Of a stretch of 64,000 nucleotides of DNA, positions 15,374-33,371 are shown one piece after another; within the stretch, counting starts at the first letter, position 1; the number at the start of each line of letters is the position of its first letter. Below the pieces are notes generated by a model, which saw only the letters and a list, made by a program, of their open reading frames with translations, made no database searches and was not told where the DNA came from. Origin of the DNA: Mesobacillus persicus (GTDB lineage Bacteria > Bacillota > Bacilli > Bacillales > Cytobacillaceae); contig NZ_FOBW01000008.1 in the NCBI RefSeq assembly GCF_900109925.1, positions 124,001-188,000 of the forward strand, read 5' to 3'. The position numbers were made by a program, and so were the translations under genes.

Positions 15374-16099
15374 CTACCGAGTTGCCCATGAACGGGCGAC
15401 CACCACTTTTTCTCTTAAAAGACCTTGCGACAAACTTCCATCCAAACCGTGGCAAACTAACGATTTAATCCATTTAGCACGCTGCGGATTGCCTTGGACG
15501 ATGTTTTTCATATAGTCAACCGTAGTTGGAATCATCACATCTTTAGGAATGATTTTACTTATGAAACCAAGTCGATAGCCTTCTTCAGCGGTTATTTGTT
15601 CTCCTAACAAGGACATCTCCAGCGCTTTTCCCTGATGCACAAGTCTTGGCAAGCTTTGAGTTCCCCCCGCTGCGGGGACCATGCCAATTCTTCCTTCTGG
15701 AAGTGCCAGTTTGGTTCCTGGCGAAGCAAACCGAAAGTCAAATAACATCGACATCTCAAGTCCCGAGCCAACGGCAAACCCATGAATAGCACTAGCAATT
15801 GGCTTTGGGAAACGCCTAATTTCATCCCATAGGTCATGTTGCAGTCGAATTCTTCGTTTGCGAATCACCGTCGATTCTGTACCAAACTCTGTCAGATCTG
15901 CCCCTGCACAAAATCCACGACCTTCTGCTTTGACAACAACACCATCAACAGTTGAGTCATCACGCAGAGCCAAGAACGTTTCATATAATCCATCACGAAT
16001 TTCCACATTAAAAGCATTTAATATTTCAGGCCGATTTAAGGTCACAATGGCAATGTTTTCATCCTTTTCTAATAAAACCGCTGGCTCCAGATTACTCAC
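15374..16099 (-). CDS. Enoyl-CoA hydratase/isomerase (crotonase), active-site glutamates present
   Basis: The 241-residue crotonase begins at a GTG preceded by GAGGGGG. The oxyanion-hole region (AEGRGFCAGADL) is present, and both catalytic glutamates of the hydratase type are in place: Glu115 (GSGLEMS) and Glu135 (ALPEGRIG). It should hydrate a 2,3-enoyl-CoA to a 3-hydroxyacyl-CoA. It is the last gene of the long module A operon, 12 bases after a second crotonase that has lost one of these glutamates. Confidence 0.92.
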   Translation of the reverse strand: MSNLEPAVLLEKDENIAIVTLNRPEILNAFNVEIRDGLYETFLALRDDSTVDGVVVKAEGRGFCAGADLTEFGTESTVIRKRRIRLQHDLWDEIRRFPKPIASAIHGFAVGSGLEMSMLFDFRFASPGTKLALPEGRIGMVPAAGGTQSLPRLVHQGKALEMSLLGEQITAEEGYRLGFISKIIPKDVMIPTTVDYMKNIVQGNPQRAKWIKSLVCHGLDGSLSQGLLREKVVVARSWATR

Positions 16100-16111: not shown

Positions 16112-16888
16112 CTACTGACTTTTGAACTGAGGTGTTCGCTTTTCAAGAAATGCCTGGACGCCTTCCATCCGGTCCCCATTCGTTTGTAATAGCATATATA
16201 GGTCCAATTCTAATCTTAGAGCCTGTTCGAACGGCATCTCACTCCCCTTTACGACACACTCTTTCGTATATTGAGTGGAAATGGACGACATCCTCGCCAA
16301 GTTTTTACCTAGCTCACAGGCCGTAGCCCACACTTCCTCCAACCTAGCTACTTTCGTAACGAATCCTCGTTGAAATGCCTCGGACGCTTGCATCCTTTCT
16401 CCTCCAAGCAGCATCGAAAGTGCCGGACCTTTGCCAATCAAGCGCGGCAATCGCTGAGTGATTCCACCTGCTGGAACCACCCCCCAAGATGATTCAGGTA
16501 CTCTAAAGCTCACATCTTCAGATGCAATACGGAGATCCGCCACACAAGCTAAGCTCATCCCCAATGACTCACACCTGCCATGGATCGCCGCAACAATCGG
16601 AAAAGGCAGTTTCCCCCATTCCTCTATTGCATCAGCGGCAATTTTTGCCGCATGGTACGTTTCGTCTTCTAGCTCTTGTTGAAAAACTGGGTTGAGTCCG
16701 ATGGAAAAATCCGCTCCCCGTCCACCTAACACAATTGCCTTTATATCGTCTAGTTCTTGTAAATCTCGCGCTAAACAAGATAAATCTTTAGCCATTTCAG
16801 CATTTAATGTGTTTTGATTCGCTGGCTGATTTAGCATGACATGAACAATCGATTCCTCAGCCCAAACTTCGAGAAAACGGTACTTCAC
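16112..16888 (-). CDS. Enoyl-CoA hydratase/isomerase family protein lacking one catalytic glutamate
   Basis: A crotonase-fold protein of about 258 residues. I prefer the GTG at 16888, six bases after GGGGG; ATGs at 16894 and 16906 lack spacing or a site. Counting from the GTG, the second glutamate is present (Glu132 in RVPESSWG), but the position of the first is Ser112. In crotonases that replacement usually means isomerase, lyase or other chemistry rather than simple hydration. The oxyanion loop (GRGADFSIGL) is kept. Its start lies inside the end of the two-domain CoA-transferase gene, which suggests translational coupling. It pairs with the canonical hydratase downstream. Confidence 0.88.
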   Translation of the reverse strand: MKYRFLEVWAEESIVHVMLNQPANQNTLNAEMAKDLSCLARDLQELDDIKAIVLGGRGADFSIGLNPVFQQELEDETYHAAKIAADAIEEWGKLPFPIVAAIHGRCESLGMSLACVADLRIASEDVSFRVPESSWGVVPAGGITQRLPRLIGKGPALSMLLGGERMQASEAFQRGFVTKVARLEEVWATACELGKNLARMSSISTQYTKECVVKGSEMPFEQALRLELDLYMLLQTNGDRMEGVQAFLEKRTPQFKSQ

Positions 16889-18719
16889 AGCCATCCCCCT
16901 TTCCATCTTTTATTAAATTAAAAATGAATTCATTATGCTGACCAAGTTCTGGCGGTGGTTGTGTAGGGACATCCCACCCATCACTATGCCAAGGTACTCC
17001 AAGGGTCGGTTCGCCTCCAGGTATGGAAAGAGTGGAAATGCGTTTTTCTTTATACAATTCTGCAATCTCACGAACAGGAGCCGAAGTTTTGTTCTTTTTT
17101 TGAAACAGTATTCCTTGTTCAATAAACTGTAGTGCCGTTTCATATTGAGATACATCGATATGCAAGCCCCTACCATTTTTAGATTGAAAAAACAATCCAG
17201 CAGCAAGGACAAACGCCCCATGGATTCCTGCGTTAATATCACTAATTGAAAAACCTGGGAGGCATGGGGCATCCACTCCTGTCAAAGCAGCAATCCCTGA
17301 CATCGCTTCTAACGTTGGACCATACCCAACGAAATCACGATAGGGCCCTGTTTGCCCAAAAGCCGAAAGAGAAACAATGGTTAGCCCAGAGTGGAGTTTC
17401 CATAGTTCTTCACTTGTAAAACCAAAATTCTGCATCACACGAGGACTAAAATTCTCCACTAAGATGTCACTAGTAGCAACCAATTCCAAAAATCGTTTTC
17501 GATCATGTTCCAATCGAAAGTCGAGAGTAACCCCCAGTTTGTTGCGATTCAGTTCTCTAAAAAAAGGAGCAGCTGACCCCTGATTCATTCGAATCCCATC
17601 AGGTCGATGGGGCGCTTCAATTTTAATTACTTCTACACCTAGATCAGCAAAGATCCTTGTGCAATAAGGTCCTGACCACATCCCCGTCAAGTCGAGAATT
17701 CTTAAGTCTGACCACTTTGAAACTGAGTTCCTTCTTTTATACTGTTCATTTTCTTGTTTCACTTTCCAAGGCAATGCAAGGCAGGGGGTTCCCTCAAGAG
17801 AATTTGTCCAGGCTTCTCGAAAAGCTAACTGCGGACACTGGAGTAGTTCCCCAGGTGTCTGCACTTTCGCAAACGGAAGTCGGAATTGTTGACCTGCCTG
17901 AAATAACTCTTCTTTTGGCAGCGTAGTGGTCCATGCAGAAAGGTTCTCCTCTAAATCGAAACAACTCTCCAAACGACCCTGATTCGTCTTCCAGGCCGGT
18001 CGGTCAGACAACTCTGCCCATCTTCTTACTAGCTCCCATTTTTCATCAACAGGGGCCGCAACCAATGCATAGCCATCTTTTGCAGGAAGGAGCGCCATTG
18101 GGGCCAAACGATAATGGCGGTTCCCTACACGCCCCCTTGTTTCCCCTGTAGATAGGAAGGTGGAAAAGGCACCTTCAAGCGCACTCACCATAACGGTTAG
18201 GGCATCGACCTCTACGAATTTCCCCTTTCCATTCCAAGAACTTTCGATGCTCACAAGTAAACCCGCGGTTGCAGCATGAACACCGACCAAGCAGGTTGCT
18301 GGATGTCCACCGATAAGTAGCGGTTTTCCAAGCGGGTCCCCCGTTAACTCCATCCAGCCCCCAAGCGCCTGAAGTGAAGCTTCTTCTTCTTGAAGGTCAA
18401 CTCCTTTCGGAACCTGAATTTTCACACCACTTAATCCAAGCTTCTGACACCTATTCTTTACCCATTCATCCAAATCAAAGTGACTAGTCCAAAGCACTAT
18501 ATCCCACACTTGCTTAAAAAGTGTTTCAATTGCCCTCTTTGCTTCCAACTCTGTAGAAACCTCGATGATTTTGAGGCTCTCTTCCTGGATAAATGGTTTT
18601 ATAGACTGAACCTTTGTGACACTCGCACCACTTTTAGCTAGTAGCTTTATTGCATATTCACCGGACGGTCCCTCTGTTAGATCTAATACTCGAAGCCCAG
18701 TTAACAGTTTCTTTTCCAT
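16857..18719 (-). CDS. Two-domain CaiB/BaiF (family III) CoA-transferase-like protein
   Basis: From the ATG at 18719 the protein has about 620 residues, longer than the roughly 400 of a single-domain family III CoA-transferase. Two copies of the CaiB N-terminal block occur: GLRVLDLTEGPSGEYAIKLL near the start, and DLRILDLTGMWSGPYCTRIF after about residue 335. The second is close to the canonical sequence (DLGVEVIKIEAPHRPDG, NRNKLGVTLD, VENFSPRVM), while the first is degenerate. This indicates tandem fusion with a decayed N-terminal half. Family III enzymes move CoA between acids through an aspartyl-CoA anhydride. It probably activates or recycles a pathway acid. The gene overlaps the following crotonase by about 30 bases. 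Confidence 0.88.
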   Translation of the reverse strand: MEKKLLTGLRVLDLTEGPSGEYAIKLLAKSGASVTKVQSIKPFIQEESLKIIEVSTELEAKRAIETLFKQVWDIVLWTSHFDLDEWVKNRCQKLGLSGVKIQVPKGVDLQEEEASLQALGGWMELTGDPLGKPLLIGGHPATCLVGVHAATAGLLVSIESSWNGKGKFVEVDALTVMVSALEGAFSTFLSTGETRGRVGNRHYRLAPMALLPAKDGYALVAAPVDEKWELVRRWAELSDRPAWKTNQGRLESCFDLEENLSAWTTTLPKEELFQAGQQFRLPFAKVQTPGELLQCPQLAFREAWTNSLEGTPCLALPWKVKQENEQYKRRNSVSKWSDLRILDLTGMWSGPYCTRIFADLGVEVIKIEAPHRPDGIRMNQGSAAPFFRELNRNKLGVTLDFRLEHDRKRFLELVATSDILVENFSPRVMQNFGFTSEELWKLHSGLTIVSLSAFGQTGPYRDFVGYGPTLEAMSGIAALTGVDAPCLPGFSISDINAGIHGAFVLAAGLFFQSKNGRGLHIDVSQYETALQFIEQGILFQKKNKTSAPVREIAELYKEKRISTLSIPGGEPTLGVPWHSDGWDVPTQPPPELGQHNEFIFNLIKDGKGDGCEVPFSRSLG

Positions 18720-18832
18720 AGACCTTTTCCACCTCCCCAAGCTCAGATCTATTCTTTAAAAACAAACAAAGTGAACCTTTTCAAAGCCATTCTTTTTTTA
18801 GGGACAATCACTCTCTTAGTCTAGCTACTTCG

Positions 18833-18976
18833 TTAATCAGCAGTTGGAAGGGCAACAGGTGTTTTGAGTTGCATCTCTTCCCCGCAACATTGAATCGTCC
18901 CTGCCCCTGGTTTCGTACAGAGTACTTCACCACCGCATTCTTTACATTCCAATCGTTTGCCGAGCTGGTTCGCCAT
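18833..18976 (-). CDS. Small desulforedoxin-like Cys4 metal protein (47 aa)
   Basis: This gene is too short for routine calling. From an ATG preceded by GGAAAGGAG it encodes MANQLGKRLECKECGGEV... with CxxC at residues 11-14 and a CC pair in the TIQCCGEEM motif. The spacing and the adjacent CC pair match desulforedoxin and the N-terminal domain of desulfoferrodoxin, which bind one Fe or Zn in a Cys4 site. It lies between two CaiB-type genes in the module A operon, next to a 38-residue paralogue. A redox or metal-structural role for a partner enzyme is possible; none is shown by the sequence. Confidence 0.75.
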   Translation of the reverse strand: MANQLGKRLECKECGGEVLCTKPGAGTIQCCGEEMQLKTPVALPTAD

Positions 18977-19024
18977 TCGGTCCACTCCTTTCCGATTTCA
19001 AACATTCCGATAACAACGAAGCCA

Positions 19025-19141
19025 TTACTTCTTTTCCACCGGCTTCCCGCAACATGTTAAATCCTCATTGCCTATTTTCGTGACAATAAATTCGCTTTTG
19101 CAGTTCGTACAAGCAAACTTCGTTCCAATTTTGATTGACAC
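19025..19141 (-). CDS. Small desulforedoxin-like Cys4 metal protein (38 aa)
   Basis: The reading frame begins at a GTG preceded by GGTGGAG and encodes a protein starting MSIKIGTKFACTNC, with CxxC and then a CC pair in DLTCCGKPVE, ending in KK. It aligns along its length with the 47-residue protein downstream, so the two are tandem paralogues. The fold expected is the desulforedoxin-type rubredoxin-like knuckle. It follows the CaiB gene by 35 bases and precedes its paralogue by 48. Two such micro-proteins side by side in an acyl-CoA operon are unusual, and the conserved cysteines plus good ribosome sites argue that both are real. Confidence 0.72.
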   Translation of the reverse strand: MSIKIGTKFACTNCKSEFIVTKIGNEDLTCCGKPVEKK

Positions 19142-19176: not shown

Positions 19177-20412
19177 TTATTTGCTGATCTTTGCACCTAA
19201 CGGCTGATTTCCAATGATTTCATTTTGCTCTAAAAACTGTATTCGTTCATCAGATAAACCTAAAATCGCTTTTAGGACATAATCATTGTGCTGGCCTAAT
19301 GTTGGCGCAGGACTGTGGTGTTCTAGACGAGCCTCCGAAAATTTTACCGGCCAAGAAGGAAATAGGTGGGTCCCGGTACACTCACGGCTTACTTCTTGAT
19401 ACATTCCTGATAAAAACGGATCGTTTTCCATTTCATCCACTTCTAATACCGGCCCAGCACTGATCCCAGCATCTTGAAGAATAGTAGCACTTTCATGATG
19501 ATCAAGTTGTATCGTCCAACTTGAAATCAGCTGATCGAGTTCATTATGATGCTGATTGCGTCCCTCATTTGTATGAAAACGAGAATCATTTGCCAGTTCA
19601 GGGCGTCCGATTACCTTACAGAAAGTCTTCCATTCATCATCGTTTTGAACAGAAATCGCCACCCATCTGTCGGTTCCTTTCGAAGGATATACACCCTGTG
19701 GAGCGATAGTAGGATGTCGGTTTCCAACTCGTTCCCAATTGCGGTTGTTCATGGACGCATCGATAATCGGCTGACCAACTAAGTTTGCACAAGCCTCGGA
19801 CTGAGCAATTTCCATATGCTGTCCTTTGCCAGACTCTGCTCGATATTCTAATGCAGCCAAAAGTCCATAGGCACAGTGGAAACTAGCAATAACGTCGCCA
19901 ACCCCAGATATAATCATCGGGTTTTCTCCCTCATACCCGTTGGTTTGCGCAATTCCAGATAAAATTTCAAATGTATACGCAAAGCCAGGCATATCACGAT
20001 AAGGCCCGCTACTCCCGTAAGCTGGCATCGAAACCATGATGATCCGAGGGTTCACCTCTTGTAGTTTTTCATAGGTTAATCCAAAGTTCCCCATGACACG
20101 CGGAGAAAAGTTCTCGACGACGACATCACTTTTAGCCACCAAGTCTTTAAATAGTTCGCGTCCTTCTGGATCATTTAAATTCAGCGTTAAGCCTAGCTTA
20201 TTCATATTCGCTGCATTAAACTGCGGCCCTAACTCCCACCAATCCTTCTCTCCTGGCGGTGCCATCGTATAGCGAAAGCCATCCGGAAACTGAATGGATT
20301 CCACTTTAATCACTTCTGCCCCAAGTGCCCCAAGATAGGAATTACACATTGGACCTGACCACCACATACTTAAGTCAAGAATACGAATTCCTTCTAACGG
20401 TAAAGATGACAT
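19177..20412 (-). CDS. CaiB/BaiF (family III) CoA-transferase
   Basis: This single-domain enzyme of 411 residues is of normal length. It shows GIRILDLSMWWSGPMCNSYLGALGAEVIKVES at the N-terminus, then NKLGLTLNLNDPEG, VVENFSPRVMGNFGL and a C-terminal LGQHNDYVL motif. It should transfer CoA between a donor thioester and a carboxylic acid substrate. The ATG follows AGGAGGG. It sits in module A between another CaiB gene and the two desulforedoxin-like genes. Family III enzymes sometimes work as two-gene heteromers (as in the BbsEF pair), so the adjacent CaiB proteins could be subunits of one enzyme. Confidence 0.92.
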   Translation of the reverse strand: MSSLPLEGIRILDLSMWWSGPMCNSYLGALGAEVIKVESIQFPDGFRYTMAPPGEKDWWELGPQFNAANMNKLGLTLNLNDPEGRELFKDLVAKSDVVVENFSPRVMGNFGLTYEKLQEVNPRIIMVSMPAYGSSGPYRDMPGFAYTFEILSGIAQTNGYEGENPMIISGVGDVIASFHCAYGLLAALEYRAESGKGQHMEIAQSEACANLVGQPIIDASMNNRNWERVGNRHPTIAPQGVYPSKGTDRWVAISVQNDDEWKTFCKVIGRPELANDSRFHTNEGRNQHHNELDQLISSWTIQLDHHESATILQDAGISAGPVLEVDEMENDPFLSGMYQEVSRECTGTHLFPSWPVKFSEARLEHHSPAPTLGQHNDYVLKAILGLSDERIQFLEQNEIIGNQPLGAKISK

Positions 20413-20441: not shown

Positions 20442-21644
20442 TTATACAACACCTTCGGCTTGAAGTTGTTCAAGTTCCTCACCATCTAGTCCGAGAACTT
20501 CCTTGTACACATAGGAGTTATGTTCGCCTAACAAGGGTGCTGGTCGTTGGATTTTCCATGGCGTTTCCGACATCGTGTAAGGAGCTCCAGGCTGAGTCAC
20601 CTTTCCCATTACAGGGTGCTCAATCTCGACAAAGAACTTTCTTGCTTCATATTGAGGAAAGTTCAGCATTTCGGTAAATGTTGGCACAGGGTTGACAGGA
20701 ACTCGCCACTGCTGTCCGAGTTCAATAATTTCCTCTCGTGTATGTGCCATTAGCCATGGATCAAACCGTTCCCTGAAAAGGTCCTTGTGAATTAGCCTCT
20801 GTCCGAGAGTGGTAAACCTTTCATCTTCAATCCATTCATACATTTCAGTCATCAAGCAGAAGTCCTGCCAATGCTTTCCTGTGAGAAGGTTGATACCGAT
20901 ATATCCATCTTTACATTTTTCAATGCTTGGCATCATCACGTATCTTCGGACATGTTTGGCTGGACTCGTCGGGAAGGAGTTTTGAACAGTTTGATAAGAG
21001 CGCTGCAACAAACCACATTCCGTTATTGAGACATCCACATGTTGCCCTTGATTGGTTTTCCGTCTTTGGGCAACAGCGGCCAGTGTTGACATCCCTGCGA
21101 AGGATCCGGAGATGTATTCTAATAACCGTAAATTCCCTCCGGCTCGTAACGGCTCGCGATTGGGTTCACCAACGGAACTCATAAACCCACCCATTGCTTG
21201 AGCAACGATTTCCGTTCCCTTGCGATCCCTGAAGGCTCCTGTCTGTCCGAAATTCGTAATAGAGGTCATGATCAAACGAGGATTGATTTCAATAAGGGTT
21301 TCGTAGCTTAACCCTAGACCTTCCATTACTCTAGGACTAAAGTTTTCTACTACTATATCCGCTTCCTTCACTAGTTTTTTAACAAATTCACTACCTTGTT
21401 TTGATTTTAAGTTTAAAGTGATACCTTTTTTATTATTGTTCAGGTAAGCATATAGACCGCTGGCGTTCAAGTCTTGTTGATCATTTGGAAACGGACCTTC
21501 TCGTCTAGAAGGATCGCCTATTCCAGGTTGCTCAATTTTAATTACATCTGCACCGAGATCGGCCAGTAGTTTTGTACAGTATGGCCCAGCAATATGCCAA
21601 GATAAATCGATGACTTTCAGACCACTAAGGGCTTGCTTAGACAT
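20442..21644 (-). CDS. CaiB/BaiF (family III) CoA-transferase
   Basis: The protein of about 400 residues starts at the ATG at 21644, eight bases after GGGG. It has GLKVIDLSWHIAGPYCTKLLADLGADVIKIEQPGIGDPSR, NKKGITLNLKS, ENFSPRVMEGLGL and a final LGEHNSYVYKEVLGL, all typical of the family. It is 30 bases upstream of the next CaiB gene, and an acyl-CoA dehydrogenase gene precedes it by about 137 bases, a gap that holds a conspicuous inverted repeat. It probably activates the pathway acid with CoA, as an alternative or complement to the ATP-dependent ligase at the operon start. Confidence 0.92.
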   Translation of the reverse strand: MSKQALSGLKVIDLSWHIAGPYCTKLLADLGADVIKIEQPGIGDPSRREGPFPNDQQDLNASGLYAYLNNNKKGITLNLKSKQGSEFVKKLVKEADIVVENFSPRVMEGLGLSYETLIEINPRLIMTSITNFGQTGAFRDRKGTEIVAQAMGGFMSSVGEPNREPLRAGGNLRLLEYISGSFAGMSTLAAVAQRRKTNQGQHVDVSITECGLLQRSYQTVQNSFPTSPAKHVRRYVMMPSIEKCKDGYIGINLLTGKHWQDFCLMTEMYEWIEDERFTTLGQRLIHKDLFRERFDPWLMAHTREEIIELGQQWRVPVNPVPTFTEMLNFPQYEARKFFVEIEHPVMGKVTQPGAPYTMSETPWKIQRPAPLLGEHNSYVYKEVLGLDGEELEQLQAEGVV

Positions 21645-21683
21645 TGGTTTCACCCCTTCTCCCTTTTCATTATTCTCTATTCG

Positions 21684-21780: not shown

Positions 21781-22920
21781 TTAAACCTTTGTCGCAACCG
21801 CCTTTCTCTCTAACGAACTTGCAATTTTCTTCAGATGAATGGGAGCTGTTCCCATGCTCAACTGAAAACGTTTAAAGCGGCGGAAGCAGAATTGGAGAGG
21901 GTAATCGATGTCAATCCCCATGCCTCCATGCAATTGATGTGCACCTGTTAACACATTTTGACCTTCCTTGCTAAGCCATGCTTTAGCAATTGCAAGTTCT
22001 CTGTCTGCAGGTAATCCTTCTGCTAACCGCCACATCGCTTGATAAGCTGCGAGACGTCCGCCTTCGACCACCGTTAGCATATCAGACAAACGATGTTGAA
22101 CCGATTGATAGCTTCCGATTGGTCGATTAAACTGCCTGCGTTCCTTCACATACTCATTCGTCACCTCAACTGCCCTGCGTAGGACCCCAACCATTTCAAT
22201 ACACTCTAGTGCCGTTGCCATCTGGATGACTCTATTGGTTTGCGACCACCCATCTCCCCCGTTTCCGAGTACATCCTCGCTTGTTAACGGAACGTCACGA
22301 TAATTCACTTCGTATACTCGCTCAGGACCTATCGCTGGAATCGATGTTATTAGAATGTCAGGCTGCCCACCTTTTACCAATAAAAGACGAACATCACCAT
22401 TCGAGCTCTTCGCCAAAGTTAGCAGATAATCTGCAGACTCCGCAAACGGAACAAACAGCTTCTTTCCATTCAGTGAATAGGTTGAACCTTTGTCAGACAG
22501 AGTTGACTTTATTAGACGATAATCATAATGGGACTGCGGTTCCGAAAACGCTCCGGTAAAAATGAACTCACCCTCTGCAATTCGCGGCAGAAGCTTTTGT
22601 TTTTGCTCCTCCGTTCCACTTTGCAGAAGAGGAATCGCACCGTACGCAATCGTAGACAGAAAGGGCGTAGGTAAGTTTGCATAACCTGCCTCCTCCACCA
22701 CAATCGCCAAATCCATGAAAGTACCACCTGCTCCCCCGTATTCTTCTGGAATAATCAATCCAACAAACCCTAAATCAGCAATTTCCTTATATAGAGCTGG
22801 AGAGTAGTTTTTCGCACTCTTTTCCGCTTCTTTTAATGCAGTGATCGTACACTTCTCTTTGAAAAATTTATTGGCTGTGCTTTTAAACACTTCTTGCGTT
22901 TCACTCAATGTGAAATCCAT
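21781..22920 (-). CDS. Acyl-CoA dehydrogenase, second (divergent) subunit type
   Basis: The 379-residue protein has the acyl-CoA dehydrogenase fold: DFTLSETQEVF at the N-terminus, IIPEEYGGAGGTFMDL, and HGGMGIDIDYPLQFCFRRFK at the C-terminus. The usual SEPxAGSD substrate/flavin loop is replaced by SEPQSHYDYRLIK, so this chain is divergent. In actinobacterial steroid degradation, pairs of dissimilar dehydrogenases (ChsE1-ChsE2 type) form alpha2beta2 complexes in which the chains share the active sites. Here the probable partner is the 25574-26737 chain of the same operon. The ATG follows GGAGGAGGGG. It should oxidise an acyl-CoA to a 2,3-enoyl-CoA, passing electrons to ETF. Confidence 0.88.
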   Translation of the reverse strand: MDFTLSETQEVFKSTANKFFKEKCTITALKEAEKSAKNYSPALYKEIADLGFVGLIIPEEYGGAGGTFMDLAIVVEEAGYANLPTPFLSTIAYGAIPLLQSGTEEQKQKLLPRIAEGEFIFTGAFSEPQSHYDYRLIKSTLSDKGSTYSLNGKKLFVPFAESADYLLTLAKSSNGDVRLLLVKGGQPDILITSIPAIGPERVYEVNYRDVPLTSEDVLGNGGDGWSQTNRVIQMATALECIEMVGVLRRAVEVTNEYVKERRQFNRPIGSYQSVQHRLSDMLTVVEGGRLAAYQAMWRLAEGLPADRELAIAKAWLSKEGQNVLTGAHQLHGGMGIDIDYPLQFCFRRFKRFQLSMGTAPIHLKKIASSLERKAVATKV

Positions 22921-22938
22921 AATTCCCCTCCTCCTAGC

Positions 22939-23361
22939 TTATTGCTCACGTCGTTTAAACTTCGGCAGTGCAATATCTTCGAACACCTGATCAACGACCA
23001 CTTCAACAGGCATCCCAATATATACTTCATCCGGTTCACAATCGACCATGTTCGAAATAATACGGACACCCTCCTCTAACTCAACGAGAACGACTTCATA
23101 CGGTACTTCAAAGCCAGGATGAACAGAACGGTGGTAAATGACGTAACTATAAACCGTTCCTTTCCCACTCATCGGCACCCATTCCAATTGATATTGACGG
23201 CAATGATGACAGATCGGACGTGGTGGATGTGAATAGGTCCCACAATTTTTACATTTTTGCACATGCAACTGCTTTGTTTCTTGTAGAAGTTGCCAATACT
23301 CTATCGTATCTTCATTCACATCAGGTCTTGGAATGGGAAATTTGCCAGTATATTGAACCAT
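22939..23361 (-). CDS. DUF35 Zn-ribbon/OB-fold protein, thiolase partner
   Basis: This 140-residue protein has an N-terminal helix, a Cys4 zinc ribbon (CKNCGTYSHPPRPICHHC) and an OB-fold domain (GKGTVYSYVIYHRSVHPGF...). DUF35 proteins bind lipid-transfer-type thiolases and complete their active complex, as in Ltp2 with the ChsH2 DUF35 domain, BbsAB and archaeal thiolases. It is six bases downstream of the thiolase gene, so the two are surely coexpressed. The ATG follows GGAGG. A paralogue sits in the same relative position in module B (34615-35031). Confidence 0.93.
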   Translation of the reverse strand: MVQYTGKFPIPRPDVNEDTIEYWQLLQETKQLHVQKCKNCGTYSHPPRPICHHCRQYQLEWVPMSGKGTVYSYVIYHRSVHPGFEVPYEVVLVELEEGVRIISNMVDCEPDEVYIGMPVEVVVDQVFEDIALPKFKRREQ

Positions 23362-23367
23362 CTTCTA

Positions 23368-24540
23368 TTACCTCCTTTTTAATATTAGGCCTGCGGTAGG
23401 AACACCTGGACCACCAGTAACTAACGAATGCTCAACATGATCGATTTGGGTCGTAGAAGTACCACGAACTTGGCGAACTCCCTCTGCAATCAGATTCATC
23501 CCGTGGACATAACCTTCTGACATTAACCCTCCGGAAGTATTAATTGGCAGCTCACCATCCGGACGGATGCGGTGCCCCCCTTCACAAAAATCAACCCCTT
23601 CTCCCTTCCCGACAAAACCCAGGGCTTCTAACTGCATCGGAACCTCTGAACTAAATGCATCATAGAACTGTGCAACATCAATCTCGTGAGGGGTAATACC
23701 AGCCATCTTAAACAGCTTTTTCCCGTATTCCTCAATCTCTGGATAGCCTGTTATATCTGGTCGATAAAAACTTGTCATCTGTTCTCCATTCGTAGACATT
23801 CCCTGTACTACTCCAGAAATATAAGCCGGACGTTGTTTTAAATGTTTCGCCCGTTCAGCCGAGGTCACGATAATAGCCACTGCGCCATCAATATTTACAC
23901 AACAATCATGTCTTCTTAATGGCGTTACATTTATTGGAGAATCCATATATTGTTCATATGTTAATTTTTGATTATAAAATAGAGCATTTGGGTTACGATT
24001 CGCATTCTCCCGGTTAACTTGGGCAATTGGATAGAATGCGCCATCTTTAATGCCATATTGATGCATATAGCGCTGCGTATACATCCCAATCCAGGAAACA
24101 GGGGTGATTAACCCATAAGGGAGATACATCCCCCAATATACATTGTTGTCATAAGATGACTTTGATGAATCAAAATCGCCAATCTTTACTGGGGAGGAAG
24201 CATCACGAATGGACCGAACACATACGACGTAGTTTGCAAGGCCAGCCGTAACTGCTGCTACTGCATGGGCGATTGTTCCACAACTCCCCCCACCACCATA
24301 GGGCGTTTTACTAAAAAAGCTGAGGTTGGGGATGCCTAAAGATCGAACAATTTCAATTTGTTCTGCGGTGTCCATTGTGTAGTTAACCATCCCATCAATA
24401 TCTTCTATGTTTAGTCCGGCATCCTCTACTGCAGCTAGGATCGCTTCCGTTGCCATCTTTAGTTCTGTTCGTCCGCAGTTCCGACTTATTTCTGTCTGGC
24501 CAATCCCAACAATGGCCGTTTGATCAGGTACCCATTCCAT
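23368..24540 (-). CDS. Thiolase-like (SCP-x/lipid-transfer type) acyl-CoA thiolase or aldolase
   Basis: The 391-residue protein starts at the ATG at 24540 after AAGGAGG. It has TAIVGIGQTEISR, the glycine-rich nucleophile region GGGGSCGT with Cys87, and late motifs QFYDAF, NTSGGLMSEGYVHG and TGGPGVPTAG. It lacks the classical GHPxGxxG of biosynthetic thiolases, as do SCP-x/Ltp proteins. With the retained Cys it could perform thiolysis; with the DUF35 partner, a retro-aldol function like Ltp2 is also possible. It overlaps the MaoC gene by one base of a TGATG junction. The module B paralogue lacks this cysteine. Confidence 0.9.
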   Translation of the reverse strand: MEWVPDQTAIVGIGQTEISRNCGRTELKMATEAILAAVEDAGLNIEDIDGMVNYTMDTAEQIEIVRSLGIPNLSFFSKTPYGGGGSCGTIAHAVAAVTAGLANYVVCVRSIRDASSPVKIGDFDSSKSSYDNNVYWGMYLPYGLITPVSWIGMYTQRYMHQYGIKDGAFYPIAQVNRENANRNPNALFYNQKLTYEQYMDSPINVTPLRRHDCCVNIDGAVAIIVTSAERAKHLKQRPAYISGVVQGMSTNGEQMTSFYRPDITGYPEIEEYGKKLFKMAGITPHEIDVAQFYDAFSSEVPMQLEALGFVGKGEGVDFCEGGHRIRPDGELPINTSGGLMSEGYVHGMNLIAEGVRQVRGTSTTQIDHVEHSLVTGGPGVPTAGLILKRR

Positions 24541-24989
24541 CACGATTTCCTCCTTTCTAGTGCTACAACTGCCTTCCCGCTTGCATGATAGCCCAGTGAA
24601 TTCTTTCCGCCAAATTCCACTTCCACTAAATGCTCTCCGTCCTTTTCATATTTTTCACTAACCTTTCCGCTCATTGTCATGACATCTCCAGGATAATTCG
24701 GCACCGCAAGTCTCAAGGTAATGCTTTTAAGTTTCGCGGTTGGTCCAGCCCAGTCCGTTAAGTACTTCCCAATCAATCCATTGGTAGTTAGGATATTCAT
24801 AAACACATTGTCAGCACCTGCTTTGCGGGCGGCATGATAATCATGATGAACTTCTGCATAATCATGTGTAGCTGAAATGGCACCACCAACTATTAGGGCA
24901 GCCGTTATCTCCCGTTCATGTACAGGCAATTGATAACCAACATCAACCTCATCCCATGTAACCGTCGAACTTACATTTGTCGTATTCAT
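24540..24989 (-). CDS. MaoC-like hydratase, active (C-type) subunit
   Basis: This 149-residue hot-dog-fold protein carries THDYAEVHHD, which fits the D-x4-H hydratase-2 catalytic dyad. It ends in DVMTMSGKVSEKYE..., the usual last strands. It is 12 bases after a larger MaoC-like gene that lacks the histidine, so the pair resembles the ChsH1/ChsH2 heteromeric enoyl-CoA hydratase of steroid degradation. It should hydrate a bulky enoyl-CoA to the 3-hydroxyacyl-CoA. The ATG follows AGGAGG. Its stop overlaps the thiolase start. Confidence 0.88.
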   Translation of the reverse strand: MNTTNVSSTVTWDEVDVGYQLPVHEREITAALIVGGAISATHDYAEVHHDYHAARKAGADNVFMNILTTNGLIGKYLTDWAGPTAKLKSITLRLAVPNYPGDVMTMSGKVSEKYEKDGEHLVEVEFGGKNSLGYHASGKAVVALERRKS

Positions 24990-25000
24990 CCTTTTTCCTC

Positions 25001-25516
25001 CTATTCATTTGAAATTGCGTTATAAGCCAAGATCGTAAACGTCTGTTTACAGACCACTTCATTGCGTTGATTTGTAAACTCGTAAAGGAACGTAACAAAA
25101 TACCCTGGACCGCGGGCTGTTTGCTTTTCAGGTGATACTTTATCGACCGAAATTTGATAACTGATTTGATCGCCAACTTTCATTGGTTCAAAATATTCTT
25201 GTCCCTGCTCAGTCGCGACAATCGAGGTATACCCATGCTCCGCTAATTCCGCCACAAATTTTTCCATCATATTTGGTTCACGCTGTGCCTTCGGCCATAT
25301 TGGGCTCATCGTATAAACTTGCACCTGCATGGGCGGTGCAATCACTTCCCCATATTCAGAATTTCGGGCATACTCCTCCTCTTGATACAACGGATTATTG
25401 TCTTCCATCACCTCACACCAATGCCGAATCATTTGCGGGCATACTTTATCTGGACCTTCAGTCCGTTCCGATTGAATGCCAATAAACTCATTTATTCTTT
25501 CTCGTGTTAACGTCAC
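25001..25516 (-). CDS. MaoC N-terminal-type (FAS1 dehydratase) hydratase subunit
   Basis: The 171-residue protein begins at a GTG with GAGGGGG upstream. It has the MaoC_dehydrat_N pattern: CEVMEDNNPLYQEEEYAR followed by VIAPPMQVQVY. The position of the catalytic histidine is Tyr in NPLY, as is usual for the non-catalytic half of double hot-dog hydratases. It probably forms a heterodimer with the next gene product, the catalytic half. Such pairs accept bulky substrates such as steroid side-chain enoyl-CoAs. Confidence 0.87.
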   Translation of the reverse strand: MTLTRERINEFIGIQSERTEGPDKVCPQMIRHWCEVMEDNNPLYQEEEYARNSEYGEVIAPPMQVQVYTMSPIWPKAQREPNMMEKFVAELAEHGYTSIVATEQGQEYFEPMKVGDQISYQISVDKVSPEKQTARGPGYFVTFLYEFTNQRNEVVCKQTFTILAYNAISNE

Positions 25517-25573
25517 TCTTGTTTCCCCCTCTTTTCATATGTTCACAGATTGCTAGCGCTTTCAATTTATAAA

Positions 25574-26737
25574 CTAGCTTTTTGGTAACCCTAATCCAAA
25601 ACGAGCGACGAGGTCGCGCTGAATGTCATTTGCTCCGCCACCGAACAAGTGAACAAGCCGCTTTTGTGCGTAAGTTTGCGCGCTTCCGTTTGCAATCGTC
25701 CATTCAGAACCTGCTGCAACCTGACCAAACATCCCCATGATTTGCATACAAGTATCAAACACCTTTTGATTCAATTCCGCAGCAAACACTTTGTTCATTG
25801 AAGGCCGAAACGGGGCGGTTTTTTCGTTGTTGTGTGCCCAAGCGGCACGATAGTTTAAGAGTTTAAGCACTTCCATTTCCATCGTTAACTCTGCTAAACT
25901 GTCACGTACCCAATGTTGATCGAGAACACGAACACCATCTACTTCATTTTCACTCGCCCACTCAATCGTTTCCTCGATCATTCGCTCCATTCGTGCATAA
26001 GTAGACAACATCAATCTTTCCAGGGAAAGCTGGGTGGTAATGTATTGCCAACCTTTATTTTCCTCCCCAACTAAGGCACTTAATGGTATACGGACGTCTT
26101 CATAATAGGACACATTTGAACGCTCCCCGATTAAATCCATCGGTGTCACTGAAAATCCTGGCGTTTTCGTCGGAACTAAAAAGATGGAAATCCCTTTATG
26201 CTTCGGCGCATCTGCATCTGTCCTGGCCGCCAACCAAATATAATCCGCCATATGGGCATTGGTGGTAAACACTTTCTGGCCATTAATGACATAAGAATCT
26301 CCCTCTCTTACCGCCCGTGTCTCTAAAGCAGCAAGATCTGTCCCAGCTTGCGGTTCAGAGTAGCCAATCGCAATCTCGACTTCTCCTTTTAAAATTTTCG
26401 GGAGAAAATAGTTCTTTTGCTCTTCTGTTCCTAGTTTCATTAACGTAGGACCAACCGTTTCAAGTGTTATAAACGGGATGTTGACACCAGTTCGTTCGAT
26501 TTCTTCTAGGAAAATATATTGCTCGAGCGGGGTTTTTCCCTGACCTCCATATTCGACGGGCCAACCAATCCCCAGCCAACCGTCTTTCCCTAAATTTTGA
26601 ATATATTGCCGCCACAGCGGACCGCCATCCGGATTTTCTATTAATTCCTCTAATAGTTCTGCCGTGATGTGTTCGTCTAAATAGGAACGGATTTCTTCTT
26701 TCAACTGACGCTGCTCATCTGTTAAATCAAAACGCAC
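25574..26737 (-). CDS. Acyl-CoA dehydrogenase
   Basis: The enzyme of about 387 residues starts most likely at the GTG at 26737, six bases after GAGGTG. Family features are complete: GWPVEYGGQG, GYSEPQAGTDLAALETRA, VINGQKVFTT and a C-terminal GGGANDIQRDLVARFGLGLP. It forms a 2,3-enoyl-CoA and passes electrons to ETF. It lies eight bases after the acyl-CoA ligase gene. It is probably the canonical chain of a two-subunit dehydrogenase with the divergent 379-residue chain of the same operon. Confidence 0.92.
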   Translation of the reverse strand: MRFDLTDEQRQLKEEIRSYLDEHITAELLEELIENPDGGPLWRQYIQNLGKDGWLGIGWPVEYGGQGKTPLEQYIFLEEIERTGVNIPFITLETVGPTLMKLGTEEQKNYFLPKILKGEVEIAIGYSEPQAGTDLAALETRAVREGDSYVINGQKVFTTNAHMADYIWLAARTDADAPKHKGISIFLVPTKTPGFSVTPMDLIGERSNVSYYEDVRIPLSALVGEENKGWQYITTQLSLERLMLSTYARMERMIEETIEWASENEVDGVRVLDQHWVRDSLAELTMEMEVLKLLNYRAAWAHNNEKTAPFRPSMNKVFAAELNQKVFDTCMQIMGMFGQVAAGSEWTIANGSAQTYAQKRLVHLFGGGANDIQRDLVARFGLGLPKS

Positions 26738-26753
26738 CTCTACCACCTCTTAC

Positions 26754-28328
26754 CTAGTTTTTTGTTTGTGATACATTTAAGAATTGCTCTCGAAGATCTT
26801 TTTTAAGAATCTTTCCTGATGAAGTTTGTGGAAGTTCTGTAACAAACTCAATCCTCACTGGACACTTAAAGCTAGCTAGATATTTGCGACAATGGGCGAT
26901 CAGTTCCTCCGGTTGTGGCGAGGCTTCTGGATTGGTCGCGACAATTACAGCCATAACCTCTTCTCCCCAGTCCAGGCTTGGCGTACCGATGACTGCCACA
27001 TCCGATACTTCCTCATGCTCTAAAAGGACATCCTCGATTTCTTGCGGGGAGATATTTTCCCCCCCACGGATAATCATGTCTGAGCTGCGTCCACTTAAAA
27101 ATAAATAGCCATCCTCATCAAGCCAGCCCATGTCTTTCGTGTTAATCCAACCGTTGATGATTGTTTCAGACGATGCATCGGGTCGTTTCCAATAGCCTTT
27201 CATCGACCGTTCTGTCCGAACATACACATTGCCAATTGTGTTCGCTTCAACAGGTTTGTGATTGTCATCCATGATCAGAATATCTACGCCTGGAAGAGGC
27301 TTGCCGACAGAAGACAATCGCTGAATTTTCTTTTCAATTTCTTTCTTCGAGCCTGTCAGTTTATGATCTTCTGGTCCTAGTACGGAGACCGTTGAGGTGG
27401 TTTCAGTCATTCCAAAACCGTTGGCAAATTCCGTCGTTTTCGGAAACAATTCAATTGCGCGGCGAATGACAGGAAATGGCATTGGTGCTGCTCCATAAGA
27501 AAGACTTTGCAAAGAGCTCAAATTGGTCTTCGAAAAATTCGGATGATCAATCACTCGTTTCAGCATCGTTGGGACTAAAAAGGCATGCGTCGCCTTTTCT
27601 TTTTCGACTGTCTGTAGCCAATCCTCTGCTTCAAACTGCCGCAGTAATATCAAGCGACGACCCGAATAGATTCCATTGCAAATGCTTGTTGCCCCCGCTA
27701 CATGATAGTTTGGGACGACAATCATAGAAGCCCCCTTGGGCAGTCCATCGGCAGCTTCTGAATGACCCATGACATAGTTGCTAAGCTGACCGTAGGTGAT
27801 CATAACCCCTTTCGGCCGACTCGTTGTTCCGCTTGTGTACAACAGAATCGCCAAGTCACTATCATCCACATCGGCAAAATCGATCAATGGGTGTGAACTT
27901 GACTGAATCACTTCTTCGTACTCTTGGCCAACTCGATGATAACCGTCGACAATAATCGTTCTTGCAATCCCTTTATCTGCGGCCAATGGTTCCAACAAGT
28001 CTGCATAGCGTTTTTCAATCAGGAGTACCTTCAATCCCGCATCTTCTAACATAAAGGCAAGTTCTTCCGCCTTTGCGCGGTAATTAATCGGCACCACTGT
28101 CGCCCCCAACTGAAATGTTGCAAAGAATGCTTCCACCACCTCAGGACTATTCGTGGAAATGATCCCAACTCGATCTCCTTGCCTCACTCCATAGGAAGCC
28201 AGTGCCGATGCTAATAAACCGGTACGCTCAATCACTTGAGCATACGTTTGGCGTCTTGTTCCGAACGTGAGGATCTCTTGGTCCGGAACTATACTCCCAG
28301 CAATATTTAATAACAAATAGGCATTCAA
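26754..28328 (-). CDS. ATP-dependent acyl-CoA ligase (AMP-forming), module A
   Basis: This ANL-superfamily ligase of about 524 residues starts at a TTG at 28328 (M-NAYLLLNIAG), preceded by GAGGAGGGG. The adenylate motif LYTSGTTSRPKGVMIT, the GFGMTETTS motif, the hinge region (KDMGWLDEDGYLFLSGRSSDMIIRGG in part) and the C-terminal lysine in SSGKILKKDLR are all present. It converts a carboxylic acid to its CoA thioester and opens module A. The start lies in a 256-base intergenic region facing the divergent MFS gene. A paralogue closes module B. Substrate unknown. Confidence 0.92.
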   Translation of the reverse strand: MNAYLLLNIAGSIVPDQEILTFGTRRQTYAQVIERTGLLASALASYGVRQGDRVGIISTNSPEVVEAFFATFQLGATVVPINYRAKAEELAFMLEDAGLKVLLIEKRYADLLEPLAADKGIARTIIVDGYHRVGQEYEEVIQSSSHPLIDFADVDDSDLAILLYTSGTTSRPKGVMITYGQLSNYVMGHSEAADGLPKGASMIVVPNYHVAGATSICNGIYSGRRLILLRQFEAEDWLQTVEKEKATHAFLVPTMLKRVIDHPNFSKTNLSSLQSLSYGAAPMPFPVIRRAIELFPKTTEFANGFGMTETTSTVSVLGPEDHKLTGSKKEIEKKIQRLSSVGKPLPGVDILIMDDNHKPVEANTIGNVYVRTERSMKGYWKRPDASSETIINGWINTKDMGWLDEDGYLFLSGRSSDMIIRGGENISPQEIEDVLLEHEEVSDVAVIGTPSLDWGEEVMAVIVATNPEASPQPEELIAHCRKYLASFKCPVRIEFVTELPQTSSGKILKKDLREQFLNVSQTKN

Positions 28329-28543
28329 CGTATCCCCTCCTCGCAAAGTTCATTTGAATTAATAATTAAAATTTTCAGAATTCTTATTGTTGTTTCGTTT
28401 ATGATAATATATAATTACGAATATAGCAATATTGAAAACGCAAAAAGATTAACACGATTAAATGACAAAGATTGACAAGGGGGTGATGTTTTACTACTTA
28501 TTGGTTCATACTTAACAAACTCTTTAGTTAATGGTAAGTAAAA

Positions 28544-30619: not shown

Positions 30620-32185
30620 TCAAGAAACGGTCAAATCCGTTCCTTGTAACTCATCTCGTAGCTTCCGTTTTAGAATCTTCCCTACACCGTTTCGCGGTAA
30701 TGCCTCTACAAATAGAATTCGGCGAGGAGACTTATATTTTGCAAGATTTTCCTGTGTATACTGAATCAATCCTTGTTCTGTTACATCCGCACCAGCCTTT
30801 TTCACGACACAAGCGATGACTTCTTCTCCCATTCTTTCATCAGGCAGTCCAATGACCGCGACTTCTGAAACTGCTTCGTGTTTGCTCAAGACTTCTTCAA
30901 GATCACGAGGATAAATATTAAATCCACCGCGGATAATCAAATCTTTTTTGCGATCCACAATATAGATGTAATCTTCGTTATCCATGGTCGCTATATCGCC
31001 TGTATACAACCACCCGTTTTTAATGGTCTTGGCTGTCTCTTCATACAGGCCATAATATCCAGGTGTGATATTCTCCCCTTTGACAATGATTTCCCCTACT
31101 TCGCCTCTTGGTAGCTCATTCCCTTCTTCATCGACGATTTTCACTTCGACGTAAGGGTAAGGAATGCCAGCCGATCCTCGTCTGACAGGTACCCCTTTTC
31201 GGTGTCCAGAAACACCACCAGTGGAGGATTCTGACAAACCATACGCTTCCCAAATTTCCGCATTAAACTTCTTTTCAAATGACTCAATCACCGCAAGTGG
31301 CAGAGAGGCAGAGCCGCAATTGACAGATTCTAAGCTAGATAGATTGTATTTATTTGTAGTTGAACTAAAGGTCATATCATGAAGCATTGCGGGAACAACT
31401 GCAAAAGTTTTCACTGAAAATCGCTCAATTGCCTGACAGACTTTCTCTAAGTCATATTTTGAAAAAACAACAATTGAATCGCCTAATATAAAGCTCGTCA
31501 CCATAATTCCAAAACCATAGATATGGGCCAATGGCAGGACACAGACCGTCGTATTCCGTTCCGCAATTCGTCCTTCAGTTTTCTTTGTATGATATGAATC
31601 TAGCGGACCAACAATCAGGTTCTTGTGAGTGAGCATGACCCCTTTTGGTCGTCCAGTTGTCCCAGACGTATAAAGAATGACAGCCACATTGTTCTCATCT
31701 GTGTCCGATACGACTTCTTGAGAACCTTCAATGGTTTCAATCGCTTGGTAAACATCTACTACATCATAGCCTTCTAGTAATTCTTTATCCTTCACCTCAT
31801 CCATCACAAAAATGGTCACGTGGTGAGACAACCCTTTCACAGCCTGGATCATATTTGGCAAACAAGCACTTGATGTAAAGATGGCTTTGGCCTTAGAATC
31901 ATTCAGGATATAGGCCATCTCGTTTGGACTTAAAATATGCATCACAGGGATGACAATATTTCGAGCACGTAGGATTCCTTGGTAAGCAAAGAAAACAGCT
32001 GAACTATTCTCCATACTGACAAGCACTCTTTCCCCATCCGAAACCCCATGATTTCTTAAAAGGACGGAGATTTTCTTTGCAACACGTTCCATATCAAGAT
32101 TTGTATATTCCTTTTCTCCATCATATAAAAATGGATACTCACCATACTGTTCTTTTGTATGATTGATCAAGTCCGTTAACAGCAT
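30620..32185 (-). CDS. ATP-dependent acyl-CoA ligase (AMP-forming), module B
   Basis: The ligase of about 521 residues starts at the ATG at 32185 after AGGAGGGAT. Motifs: LYTSGTTGRPKGVMLTH, EAYGLSESSTGG, WLYTGDIATMD, KKDLIIRGGFNIYPRDLEE and the C-terminal lysine in NGVGKILKRKLR. It forms an acyl-CoA from a carboxylic acid, ATP and CoA. It closes module B, whereas the homologous ligase opens module A, so the two modules are rearranged relative to each other. The end is marked by a terminator. Fatty, aryl or alicyclic acids are all possible substrates. Confidence 0.92.
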   Translation of the reverse strand: MLLTDLINHTKEQYGEYPFLYDGEKEYTNLDMERVAKKISVLLRNHGVSDGERVLVSMENSSAVFFAYQGILRARNIVIPVMHILSPNEMAYILNDSKAKAIFTSSACLPNMIQAVKGLSHHVTIFVMDEVKDKELLEGYDVVDVYQAIETIEGSQEVVSDTDENNVAVILYTSGTTGRPKGVMLTHKNLIVGPLDSYHTKKTEGRIAERNTTVCVLPLAHIYGFGIMVTSFILGDSIVVFSKYDLEKVCQAIERFSVKTFAVVPAMLHDMTFSSTTNKYNLSSLESVNCGSASLPLAVIESFEKKFNAEIWEAYGLSESSTGGVSGHRKGVPVRRGSAGIPYPYVEVKIVDEEGNELPRGEVGEIIVKGENITPGYYGLYEETAKTIKNGWLYTGDIATMDNEDYIYIVDRKKDLIIRGGFNIYPRDLEEVLSKHEAVSEVAVIGLPDERMGEEVIACVVKKAGADVTEQGLIQYTQENLAKYKSPRRILFVEALPRNGVGKILKRKLRDELQGTDLTVS

Positions 32186-32234
32186 CTTATCCCTCCTAAT
32201 CAATCCAAATTTTTTATCGTCCCTTCGGACTGCA

Positions 32235-33371
32235 TTACCAATTTAAAGCCAAGGCTGTCTTTTCCCTATATTGCTGAACACTACCAAGATAATTTTCATA
32301 ATATCGAGCGCGTTTTAAATAAAGCTGACAATCTAGTTCCTCCGTAACCCCAATTCCCCCATGAATCTGGATGCTTTGGGAAGCAATGCGAATATACGCC
32401 TCCGTTATAAATGCACGAGCACTGTAAATGGCTGCTTTCTTATCATCTACGTCCGTTTCTAGTGCCCAATTCGCATAATAACTGAGCGATCTTGCAGTTT
32501 CTAGGTCCGTTTTCATATCGACAATTCCATGCTTAATCGCCTGAAACCGTCCAATCGGTTGCCCAAACTGAACGCGAATAGTTGCATATTCAGCAGTCAT
32601 TTCGACAATTCGGTCCATCCCACCTACCATCAGCGAACAAAGCGCTCCATTTAAATGAAGCAACCCTTCTTGTAAAACGTCCCAGCCTTGATTCATTGCA
32701 CCAAGAACCTGACTTTTGGAAACCCTTACATTTTCAAATGTCACTTCTGCGAGGCGTTGTGTTTCATCAAAACATTTCTGATGACGTACGGTAATCCCCG
32801 TATCCTCACGATCAAGAAGGACAAGGGATAATCCGGCCCCATCTTTGCCATCCATGGTACGTACTAATAAGATATACGTATCGACAACGTCACCGTCAGG
32901 AATGAGTGACTTTACTCCATTTATGACAAGAGATTCTCCTTCGGCTGAAGCCGTCACCCCAACGCTGTCAGGGTTATACCCTTTCTTTGGCTCTAACCAA
33001 GCAAGCGTCATTTTTTTTGTTCCAGCTGCAATTTCTGGCAAATATTTTTGTTTCTGCTCATCCGTTCCATATTTCTCTAAAATCGGGATTGCAAAGCCAA
33101 TGGTCTCGAGTAGAGTTCCTGGAAGAAGTGCTCTTCCTAATTCTTCAAAAACAGGCACGAGATCGAGCGAACCAAGGCCTGACCCTTCAAATTCTTCAGA
33201 TACTGTCATGCCCGTACAACCAAGTTCTACTAACCCTCTCGTCACCTTATCTAACGACGTTGTGTTTCCTTTCACAACATCACGAGCTATCGATGTCTGC
33301 CCATGCTGATCAAAAAATTTACGGATAGAACGGCGAAACATTTCTTGTTCTTCACTTAATGAAAAGTCCAT
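32235..33371 (-). CDS. Acyl-CoA dehydrogenase, divergent subunit type, module B
   Basis: This 378-residue chain has DFSLSEEQEMFRRSIRKFFD and HGGIGVTEELDCQLYLKRAR, but the substrate/flavin loop is unusual (WLEPKKGYNPDSVGVTA), as in its counterpart of module A. It is 20 bases after a canonical dehydrogenase gene (33392-34588), and the two probably form a heteromeric enzyme of the ChsE1-ChsE2 type. The ATG follows AAGGAGGTG. It should desaturate an acyl-CoA together with its partner. Confidence 0.88.
   Translation of the reverse strand: MDFSLSEEQEMFRRSIRKFFDQHGQTSIARDVVKGNTTSLDKVTRGLVELGCTGMTVSEEFEGSGLGSLDLVPVFEELGRALLPGTLLETIGFAIPILEKYGTDEQKQKYLPEIAAGTKKMTLAWLEPKKGYNPDSVGVTASAEGESLVINGVKSLIPDGDVVDTYILLVRTMDGKDGAGLSLVLLDREDTGITVRHQKCFDETQRLAEVTFENVRVSKSQVLGAMNQGWDVLQEGLLHLNGALCSLMVGGMDRIVEMTAEYATIRVQFGQPIGRFQAIKHGIVDMKTDLETARSLSYYANWALETDVDDKKAAIYSARAFITEAYIRIASQSIQIHGGIGVTEELDCQLYLKRARYYENYLGSVQQYREKTALALNW

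Follow-up and report, generated by a model that had tools for sequence, protein, structure and literature searches.

Two overlooked genes of Mesobacillus persicus, P2 and P1, encode the separate halves of a two-domain protein, found elsewhere as a single fused chain. This protein probably serves one clade of AMP-forming acyl-CoA ligases, which it would stabilise or activate. A dedicated ligase helper is the probable role because the protein accompanies this ligase across distantly related soil bacteria, including those in which the metal site is gone. The window, that is the whole 64,000-nucleotide stretch of DNA analysed, contains the two genes within a same-strand run of acyl-CoA and CoA-transferase genes, which the initial annotation had described as a CoA-transferase operon. 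The run is given below from its head to its end.

26754..28346, minus strand: AMP-forming acyl-CoA ligase, head of the run and proposed partner, assigned to the clade by trees and signature residues
25574-26746, minus strand: acyl-CoA dehydrogenase
25001-25516, minus strand: FAS1-DH-like protein
24540-24989, minus strand: MaoC
23368-24543, minus strand: thiolase/lipid-transfer type protein
22939-23361, minus strand: OB/zinc-ribbon protein (ChsH2-like)
21781-22920, minus strand: acyl-CoA dehydrogenase
20442..21653, minus strand: second CaiB family CoA-transferase
19177..20412, minus strand: CaiB family CoA-transferase, directly upstream of P2
19146..19153, minus strand: ribosome-binding-like stretch GGGTGGAG 5' of P2, judged by eye
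19025..19141, minus strand: P2, 38-aa micro-protein with CxxC...CC, 38 codons from a GTG start at 19141 to the stop at 19025 (stop included), corresponding to the first domain of the two-domain family
18985..18990, minus strand: ribosome-binding-like stretch AAGGAG 5' of P1, judged by eye
18833..18976, minus strand: P1, 47-aa micro-protein with CxxC...CC and the C-terminus ALPTAD, 47 codons from an ATG start at 18976 to the stop at 18833 (stop included), corresponding to the second domain
16857..18740 (ORF limits), minus strand: CaiB CoA-transferase of the double (two-domain) type, the next gene downstream of P1, with a likelier ATG start at about 18719 (by eye); the order is the same in Neobacillus kokaensis and in G075, a genome from another order of Bacilli
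16112-16906, minus strand: enoyl-CoA hydratase/isomerase
15374-16099, minus strand: enoyl-CoA hydratase/isomerase, end of the run

P2 and P1 are real genes. The two frames, each with a CxxC and a CC pair, were confirmed at the lengths and in the place that had been reported for them, between a CaiB gene and the two-domain CaiB gene, and their reported mutual similarity amounts to 32% identity. The ribosome sites likewise held up by eye, as purine-rich stretches 4 bases (P2) and 8 bases (P1) ahead of the starts. A six-frame scan of the window for the pattern C..C(11-18)CC matched P2 and P1 only, compared with a mean of 0.23 and a maximum of 1 match in 60 base-shuffled windows. Conservation and codon bias, the check that the initial annotation had proposed, came out in favour of coding. 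N. kokaensis, found by a contig scan with the window CaiB (77% identity) that returned only one close and one distant CaiB, has both frames, at 85% identity for P1 and 68% for P2. Differences at the three codon positions numbered 6/3/27 in P1 and 6/4/23 in P2, and pN (0.095 and 0.154, respectively) was far below a pS of about 0.82, at which synonymous sites are saturated. The neighbouring CaiB gene gave much the same picture (pN 0.15, pS 0.75), and the spacers between genes bore no visible likeness in an unaligned side-by-side view. All 14 gene-run proteins compared, P2 and P1 included, have collinear counterparts in N. kokaensis, as does the whole interval between ligase and CaiB (21781..26746). 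Chance or non-coding frames were thus ruled out by third-position bias together with homology.

The reported pair of tandem micro-proteins stands in so far as the genes are separate here; they are not independent units, their counterparts being fused elsewhere. In G075 both domains lie in one 95-aa frame, directly followed by a double CaiB and an enoyl-CoA hydratase as in the window. A tblastn search of 72,556 plasmid records yielded homologues of 96-103 aa on 18 records, 12 of them from Rhodococcus and the others from Mycobacterium branderi, Streptomyces, Sphingomonas and Sphingobium; where annotated, these carry the label 'hypothetical protein'. Models of the two domains were built from 16 of the 17 distinct plasmid sequences, leaving out the Bacilli in order to avoid circularity, and were searched against 2,358 frames of the window and the loci L010 and L012. 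The model of domain 2, itself free of ligand cysteines, retrieved P1 at E 2.4e-12 and that of domain 1 retrieved P2 at E 2.6e-5; elsewhere in the window nothing scored better than E 2. P2 and P1 accordingly are domains 1 and 2 of one protein, encoded separately. The two also share one reading frame, both in the window (18833-19141) and at L010 (11275-11604), with start-to-start distances of 165 and 189 bases, as if a fused gene had been split by stop codons or two genes stood ready to fuse.

Searches of 61 genomes of relatives, 7 of the genus, 397 of the order, 398 of the class and 398 of the phylum gave no further true member except G075, which is the sole genome of its order. Three Bacilli cases are known in this analysis (the window, N. 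kokaensis and G075). Two matches were set aside. One, in G737 (L033), covers the domain-1 half only. The other, in G399 (L007), consists of one domain only, in a frame of 203 codons that by eye has the look of an XRE-type regulator; its desulforedoxin-type domain keeps all four cysteines and is apparently unrelated to the P2/P1 family. The family, probably of desulforedoxin origin, did not turn up in the libraries searched and may be undescribed. In the PMC open subset, which sets the scope of the literature covered, no paper was found on the family or linking desulforedoxin with CoA-transferase or acyl-CoA, and for desulforedoxin-like proteins and the desulforedoxin domain the papers found in that subset concern C. 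difficile. Upstream of the fused micro-protein of G075 (L012:17182-18394), two genes were observed, one cyclophilin-like and one of the 2-oxoacid:ferredoxin oxidoreductase beta type.

The tie to the ligase was seen on plasmids, where an adenylate-forming ligase adjoins the micro-protein at most loci. The ligase next to the micro-protein of Rhodococcus sp. DMU1 was used as a tblastn query against the 72,556 records, giving 152 records at E <=1e-40. The best 18 of these (48-100% identity) were exactly the 18 micro-protein records; the 19th stood at 36%. On the 15 records examined gene by gene, which omit the R. koreensis, DK180 and R. erythropolis plasmids that the record counts include, there were 18 micro-protein genes and 18 clade ligases, in equal numbers per record, and the three records with two micro-proteins were the three with two clade ligases. 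All clade ligases on these records scored at least 468 bits, the next ligase 253 bits. In 16 of the 18 pairs the two genes are neighbours on the same strand, no more than about 105 bases apart, the ligase lying downstream in 11 and upstream in 5; the remaining two are unlinked, about 28 kb apart in R. gordoniae and about 15 kb apart for one pair of Rhodococcus sp. BH4. At 28 loci of background ligases a profile search found no micro-protein, within about 1.5 kb (L056-L077) or 3 kb (L111-L116) per side, a check that a very divergent micro-protein could escape. On pDND3A of R. gordoniae (L029) the micro-protein sits in an unusual context, among genes for an FAD-dependent oxidoreductase, a hydrolase and an aminotransferase. 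On the VOC-14 plasmid (NZ_CP130956.1) there are two copies, equal in score and opposite in orientation, of the pair and of several other ligase genes, which suggests a large inverted duplication or an assembly artefact.

The same method was applied to one gene of each other neighbour as a control. Among the 18 best records for each, the micro-protein was present on 12 for an acyl-CoA dehydrogenase (DMU1), 8 for a CaiB (DK17) and 5 for a thiolase (DMU1), with records that lack the micro-protein interleaved in the lists, and all three were rejected as primary partner since they were weaker than the ligase (18 of 18) in the same test. The result for CaiB bears on the suggestion, made in the initial annotation, of a component of a CoA-transferase or dehydrogenase complex, and it disfavours a CoA-transferase as main partner. 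It is a minor possibility that the neighbouring double CaiB CoA-transferase has the protein as a structural or metal-dependent subunit, given that in the window, N. kokaensis and G075 the micro-protein lies immediately upstream of the double CaiB gene, which an enoyl-CoA hydratase gene follows, that the R. qingshengii 7B and Rhodococcus DK17 loci run micro-protein, CaiB, CaiB, enoyl-CoA hydratase, and that in two sphingomonads an annotated CoA transferase directly precedes the micro-protein. Besides the control, however, in M. branderi and R. rhodochrous no CaiB is annotated within 9 kb of the micro-protein; for DMU1, the second BH4 copy and R. gordoniae the same is true of a 6-kb range.

That the gene pair is simply carried along on a mobile catabolic module and is functionally unrelated to the ligase would be a less probable account still. 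Distances among micro-proteins and among ligases were correlated in a Mantel test (r 0.75 with 17 pairs and 0.61 with 16 pairs, p 0.0001), which favours the ligase partnership; linked inheritance alone could, however, produce such a correlation, and it does account for part of this one. Many of the records are large catabolic plasmids of one genus, and several appear to be near-copies (DK17 and DK180, 7B and R. erythropolis, and the two identical copies on VOC-14); as many plasmid records are related, the number of independent events is below 18. Hitch-hiking is disfavoured by the controls, in which other genes of the module failed to show the same exact co-occurrence, by the position of the ligase on either side of the micro-protein and by the two pairs that were kept though unlinked.

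The ligase at the head of the window run was assessed for membership of this clade. Overall identity does not by itself decide this, as the window ligase is 33-38% identical to the plasmid clade and 33-41% identical to background Bacilli ligases; to the ligases of N. kokaensis and G075 it is 73% and 48% identical. A careful tree of 37 ligases was considered together with signature residues. The tree comprised the clade and its nearest background from a 72-row tree, one identical row removed; for the larger tree 7 of 63 ORFs had been dropped (two copies of window ligases, two partial ORFs and three distant or extra ligases), and for the ligase trees the program warned of long branches and odd composition in some rows. 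The ligases of the window, N. kokaensis and G075 fell with 17 plasmid ligases and that of G275 on one branch with support of 100/99. At 36 signature columns, picked from 18 plasmid versus 50 background ligases with the Bacilli left out, the window and G075 ligases each carry 17 of the clade residues, N. kokaensis 16, G275 10 and background ligases at most 9 (mean 2.6). Across 398 Bacilli genomes the best foreign match of the window ligase was G075 at 510 bits, the next being 379, and in the class draw of 398, presumably the same draw, G075 alone besides the source genome of the window carries the tandem domains. It is thus the trees and the signature residues, and not identity over the whole protein, that place the window ligase in the clade.

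The ligases of the window and G075 both contain the AMP-binding domain PF00501 and the C-terminal domain PF13193, as expected of AMP-forming acyl-CoA ligases. All 21 aligned clade members have the GK motif of the catalytic Lys region, and the TGD motif is altered to TKD, TRD, TND or TDD; residues conserved in and specific to the clade include, in window numbering, Y191, Y214, Y227, R230, W243 and N309. For four clade ligases scanned no NCBIfam cut-off was reached among the 25 best matches listed, the window ligase falling 0.2 bits short of that of subfamily PRK06187, and a PDB search with a clade ligase returned ordinary CoA ligases and NRPS modules. G275 is an exception: its ligase lies inside the clade on a long branch, and searches of about 9 kb around it and of the whole genome found no micro-protein. 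Placing this ligase outside the clade cost 6.8 log units and was marginally rejected (p-AU 0.0456), so that G275 may have a true relative of the clade ligases without the partner. The G275 ligase keeps 8 of 20 clade-specific residues and is without R230 and Y227, a pattern that would fit a ligase which never gained, or has lost, the docking face proposed below. This softens the exception and does not remove it.

The window offers a contrast of its own in a second, parallel acyl-CoA cluster (30620-37106, minus strand), headed by a second ligase of another clade (30620-32203), which is about 31-34% identical to the plasmid clade ligases over shorter stretches. This cluster holds the ligase, two acyl-CoA dehydrogenases, a ChsH2-like protein, a thiolase and two MaoC/FAS1-DH-type proteins, and pattern and profile searches of the window found no micro-protein in it.

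The label desulforedoxin-like, given to the frames at the outset, is right for the domain. Against the Pfam model PF06397 (cut-off 23 bits) P1 scored 25.1 bits and P2, just short, 20.7; the fused protein of G075 scored 48.2 bits over two stretches, the N. kokaensis pair 18.9 and 15.5 bits, and of six plasmid members one scored 13.3 bits and five gave no match. Nothing was above cut-off for these six in Pfam or NCBIfam. The best solved relative of P1 in a PDB sequence search was desulforedoxin 1cfw (E 0.0017). Profiles of the family found no relative among solved structures, one run returning nothing and the other ribosomal S16/uS9 chains at E of at least 0.37. AlphaFold models from two-row alignments reached a pLDDT of 56 for P1 and 62 for P2, with short strands only and no usable fold, and Foldseek gave no match below E 3.9 for the P1 model. 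The CxxC...CC pattern and the domain length are those of desulforedoxin and the N-terminal domain of desulfoferrodoxin (PF06397; 1cfw, 1dcd, 1dxg). Unlike desulforedoxin, the P2/P1 family has two domains, as tandem genes or as one fused gene, is tied to an acyl-CoA ligase clade, bears a conserved C-terminal LPxSD tail and lacks metal ligands in the plasmid members read. Unlike desulfoferrodoxin it is without a superoxide-reductase domain, none being listed in the proteins of 38, 47 and 95-103 aa, and NCBIfam dfx_rbo lay far under its cut-off.

The metal site was read in 18 plasmid copies (17 distinct) and the three Bacilli members. All four cysteines are present in both domains of the window and N. 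kokaensis proteins; G075 has four in domain 1, as seen by eye with the aligner off by one column, and CxxC...CH in domain 2. In domain 2 of all 18 plasmid copies none of the four ligand cysteines is present, the first position being Asp or Glu throughout. Domain 1 has, in every copy, Ser or Ala in place of the first ligand and Gly or Ala at the fourth aligned position, leaving ligand cysteines at no more than two aligned columns; extra nearby cysteines in R. opacus DSM 44186 and Streptomyces NBC_00564 might, in another alignment, make three but never four. This loss has spared GKR, E and GxG as well as the precise C-terminal end: all 21 members finish on Asp, 20 of them with LPxSD or LPTAD and G075 with MATSD. 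The metal site has been lost in the Actinomycetota and Sphingomonadaceae members read, and the domain has outlasted it.

A redox metal cannot be the function of the family as a whole, given that neither domain of the 18 plasmid homologues read has the Cys4 site. The initial annotation had put forward a metal or electron-transfer component; as a core function this is not supported, since homologues lost the site and kept signature, C-terminus and context. We accordingly regard as improbable an electron-transfer component, desulforedoxin- or rubredoxin-like, that serves the acyl-CoA dehydrogenases or some other dehydrogenase in the cluster, in spite of the complete Cys4 sites of the window and N. 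kokaensis proteins and the Pfam and PDB sequence matches to desulforedoxin.

LysW is a small Cys4 carrier used through its C-terminus, and LysW/ArgW carriers share with P2/P1 an acidic conserved C-terminus and a place beside an ATP-dependent ligase. The ligase might by analogy adenylate the C-terminal Asp of P1 or load substrate on the protein, the terminal Asp being common to all 21 members and the partner being a carboxylate-activating enzyme. This we consider very unlikely. The LysW/ArgW model TIGR01206 gave 15.2 bits against a cut-off of 53.2 on the G075 protein and was unlisted for the others scanned, the surrounding genes are those of ordinary acyl-CoA catabolism, for which CoA is the expected acceptor, and, unlike in LysW/ArgW systems, the partner is an AMP-forming CoA ligase and the pathway looks degradative. 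Small Cys4 proteins often bind DNA or protein, and a desulforedoxin-type domain does occur in the XRE-type-looking frame of L007, an unrelated Bacilli genome; even so, a regulator or metal/redox sensor of the operon, of the small zinc-ribbon type, is the least probable reading, as there is no DNA-binding domain in the 38-47-aa or scanned 95-103-aa forms, the plasmid members are without metal ligands and the tie to one enzyme clade is one-to-one.

A losable metal, a fixed C-terminus, a one-to-one tie to an enzyme and a changing gene order are most simply explained by a dedicated binding partner of the ligase. P2 and P1 would most likely come together as one small unit, dock on the ligase via conserved surfaces, namely GKR, E, GxG and the C-terminal LPxSD, and thereby stabilise or activate it. 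In Bacilli the cysteines of each domain would probably bind a single Zn or Fe as a structural metal that keeps the domain together. On the ligase side Y191, Y214, Y227, R230, W243 and N309 could, as a guess, form the docking face, and the altered TGD motif would be a further mark of the clade whose functional meaning is likewise a guess. Against the ligase-partner reading count the arrangement in Bacilli, where the micro-protein genes adjoin CaiB and lie several genes away from the ligase, and the two unlinked plasmid pairs. That a new family derived from desulforedoxin, its metal lost in the actinobacterial and sphingomonad lineages read, became an obligate accessory subunit or chaperone of a clade of stand-alone acyl-CoA ligases, as an MbtH-like arrangement within degradative metabolism, seems to us evenly balanced.

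ChsH2-type subunits, with an OB fold and zinc ribbon (PF12172/PF01796), are likewise small accessory proteins in acyl-CoA gene runs. Their partner is a thiolase or aldolase, whereas that of P2/P1 would be a ligase, and the domains are different. A closer likeness may be to MbtH-like proteins, which according to PMC7593251 are needed for the proper function of many NRPS and may be chaperones. P2/P1 would resemble these in being small, encoded apart from the enzyme and tied to an adenylate-forming partner, on which it would act as they do on NRPS adenylation domains; unlike theirs, its proposed partner is a stand-alone CoA ligase clade. Pfam listed no MbtH family match with an E of 1 or less for either window protein, the N. 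kokaensis pair or the six plasmid members.

Should the proposed partnership hold, CoA ligases that gate the catabolism of environmental compounds depend on a partner missed by annotation, which could explain such a ligase appearing inactive or insoluble when expressed alone. The family would, moreover, show clearly that an ancient metal-binding fold can outlive its metal, and one could then ask what the metal was for.

A minor observation concerns the double CaiB (16857-18740). Its C-terminal half carries the D in ISDINAG, which by comparison with formyl-CoA transferase would be the catalytic Asp, and the N-terminal half has, by eye, HPATCLVG at the apparent equivalent, so one half of this enzyme may lack the catalytic Asp.
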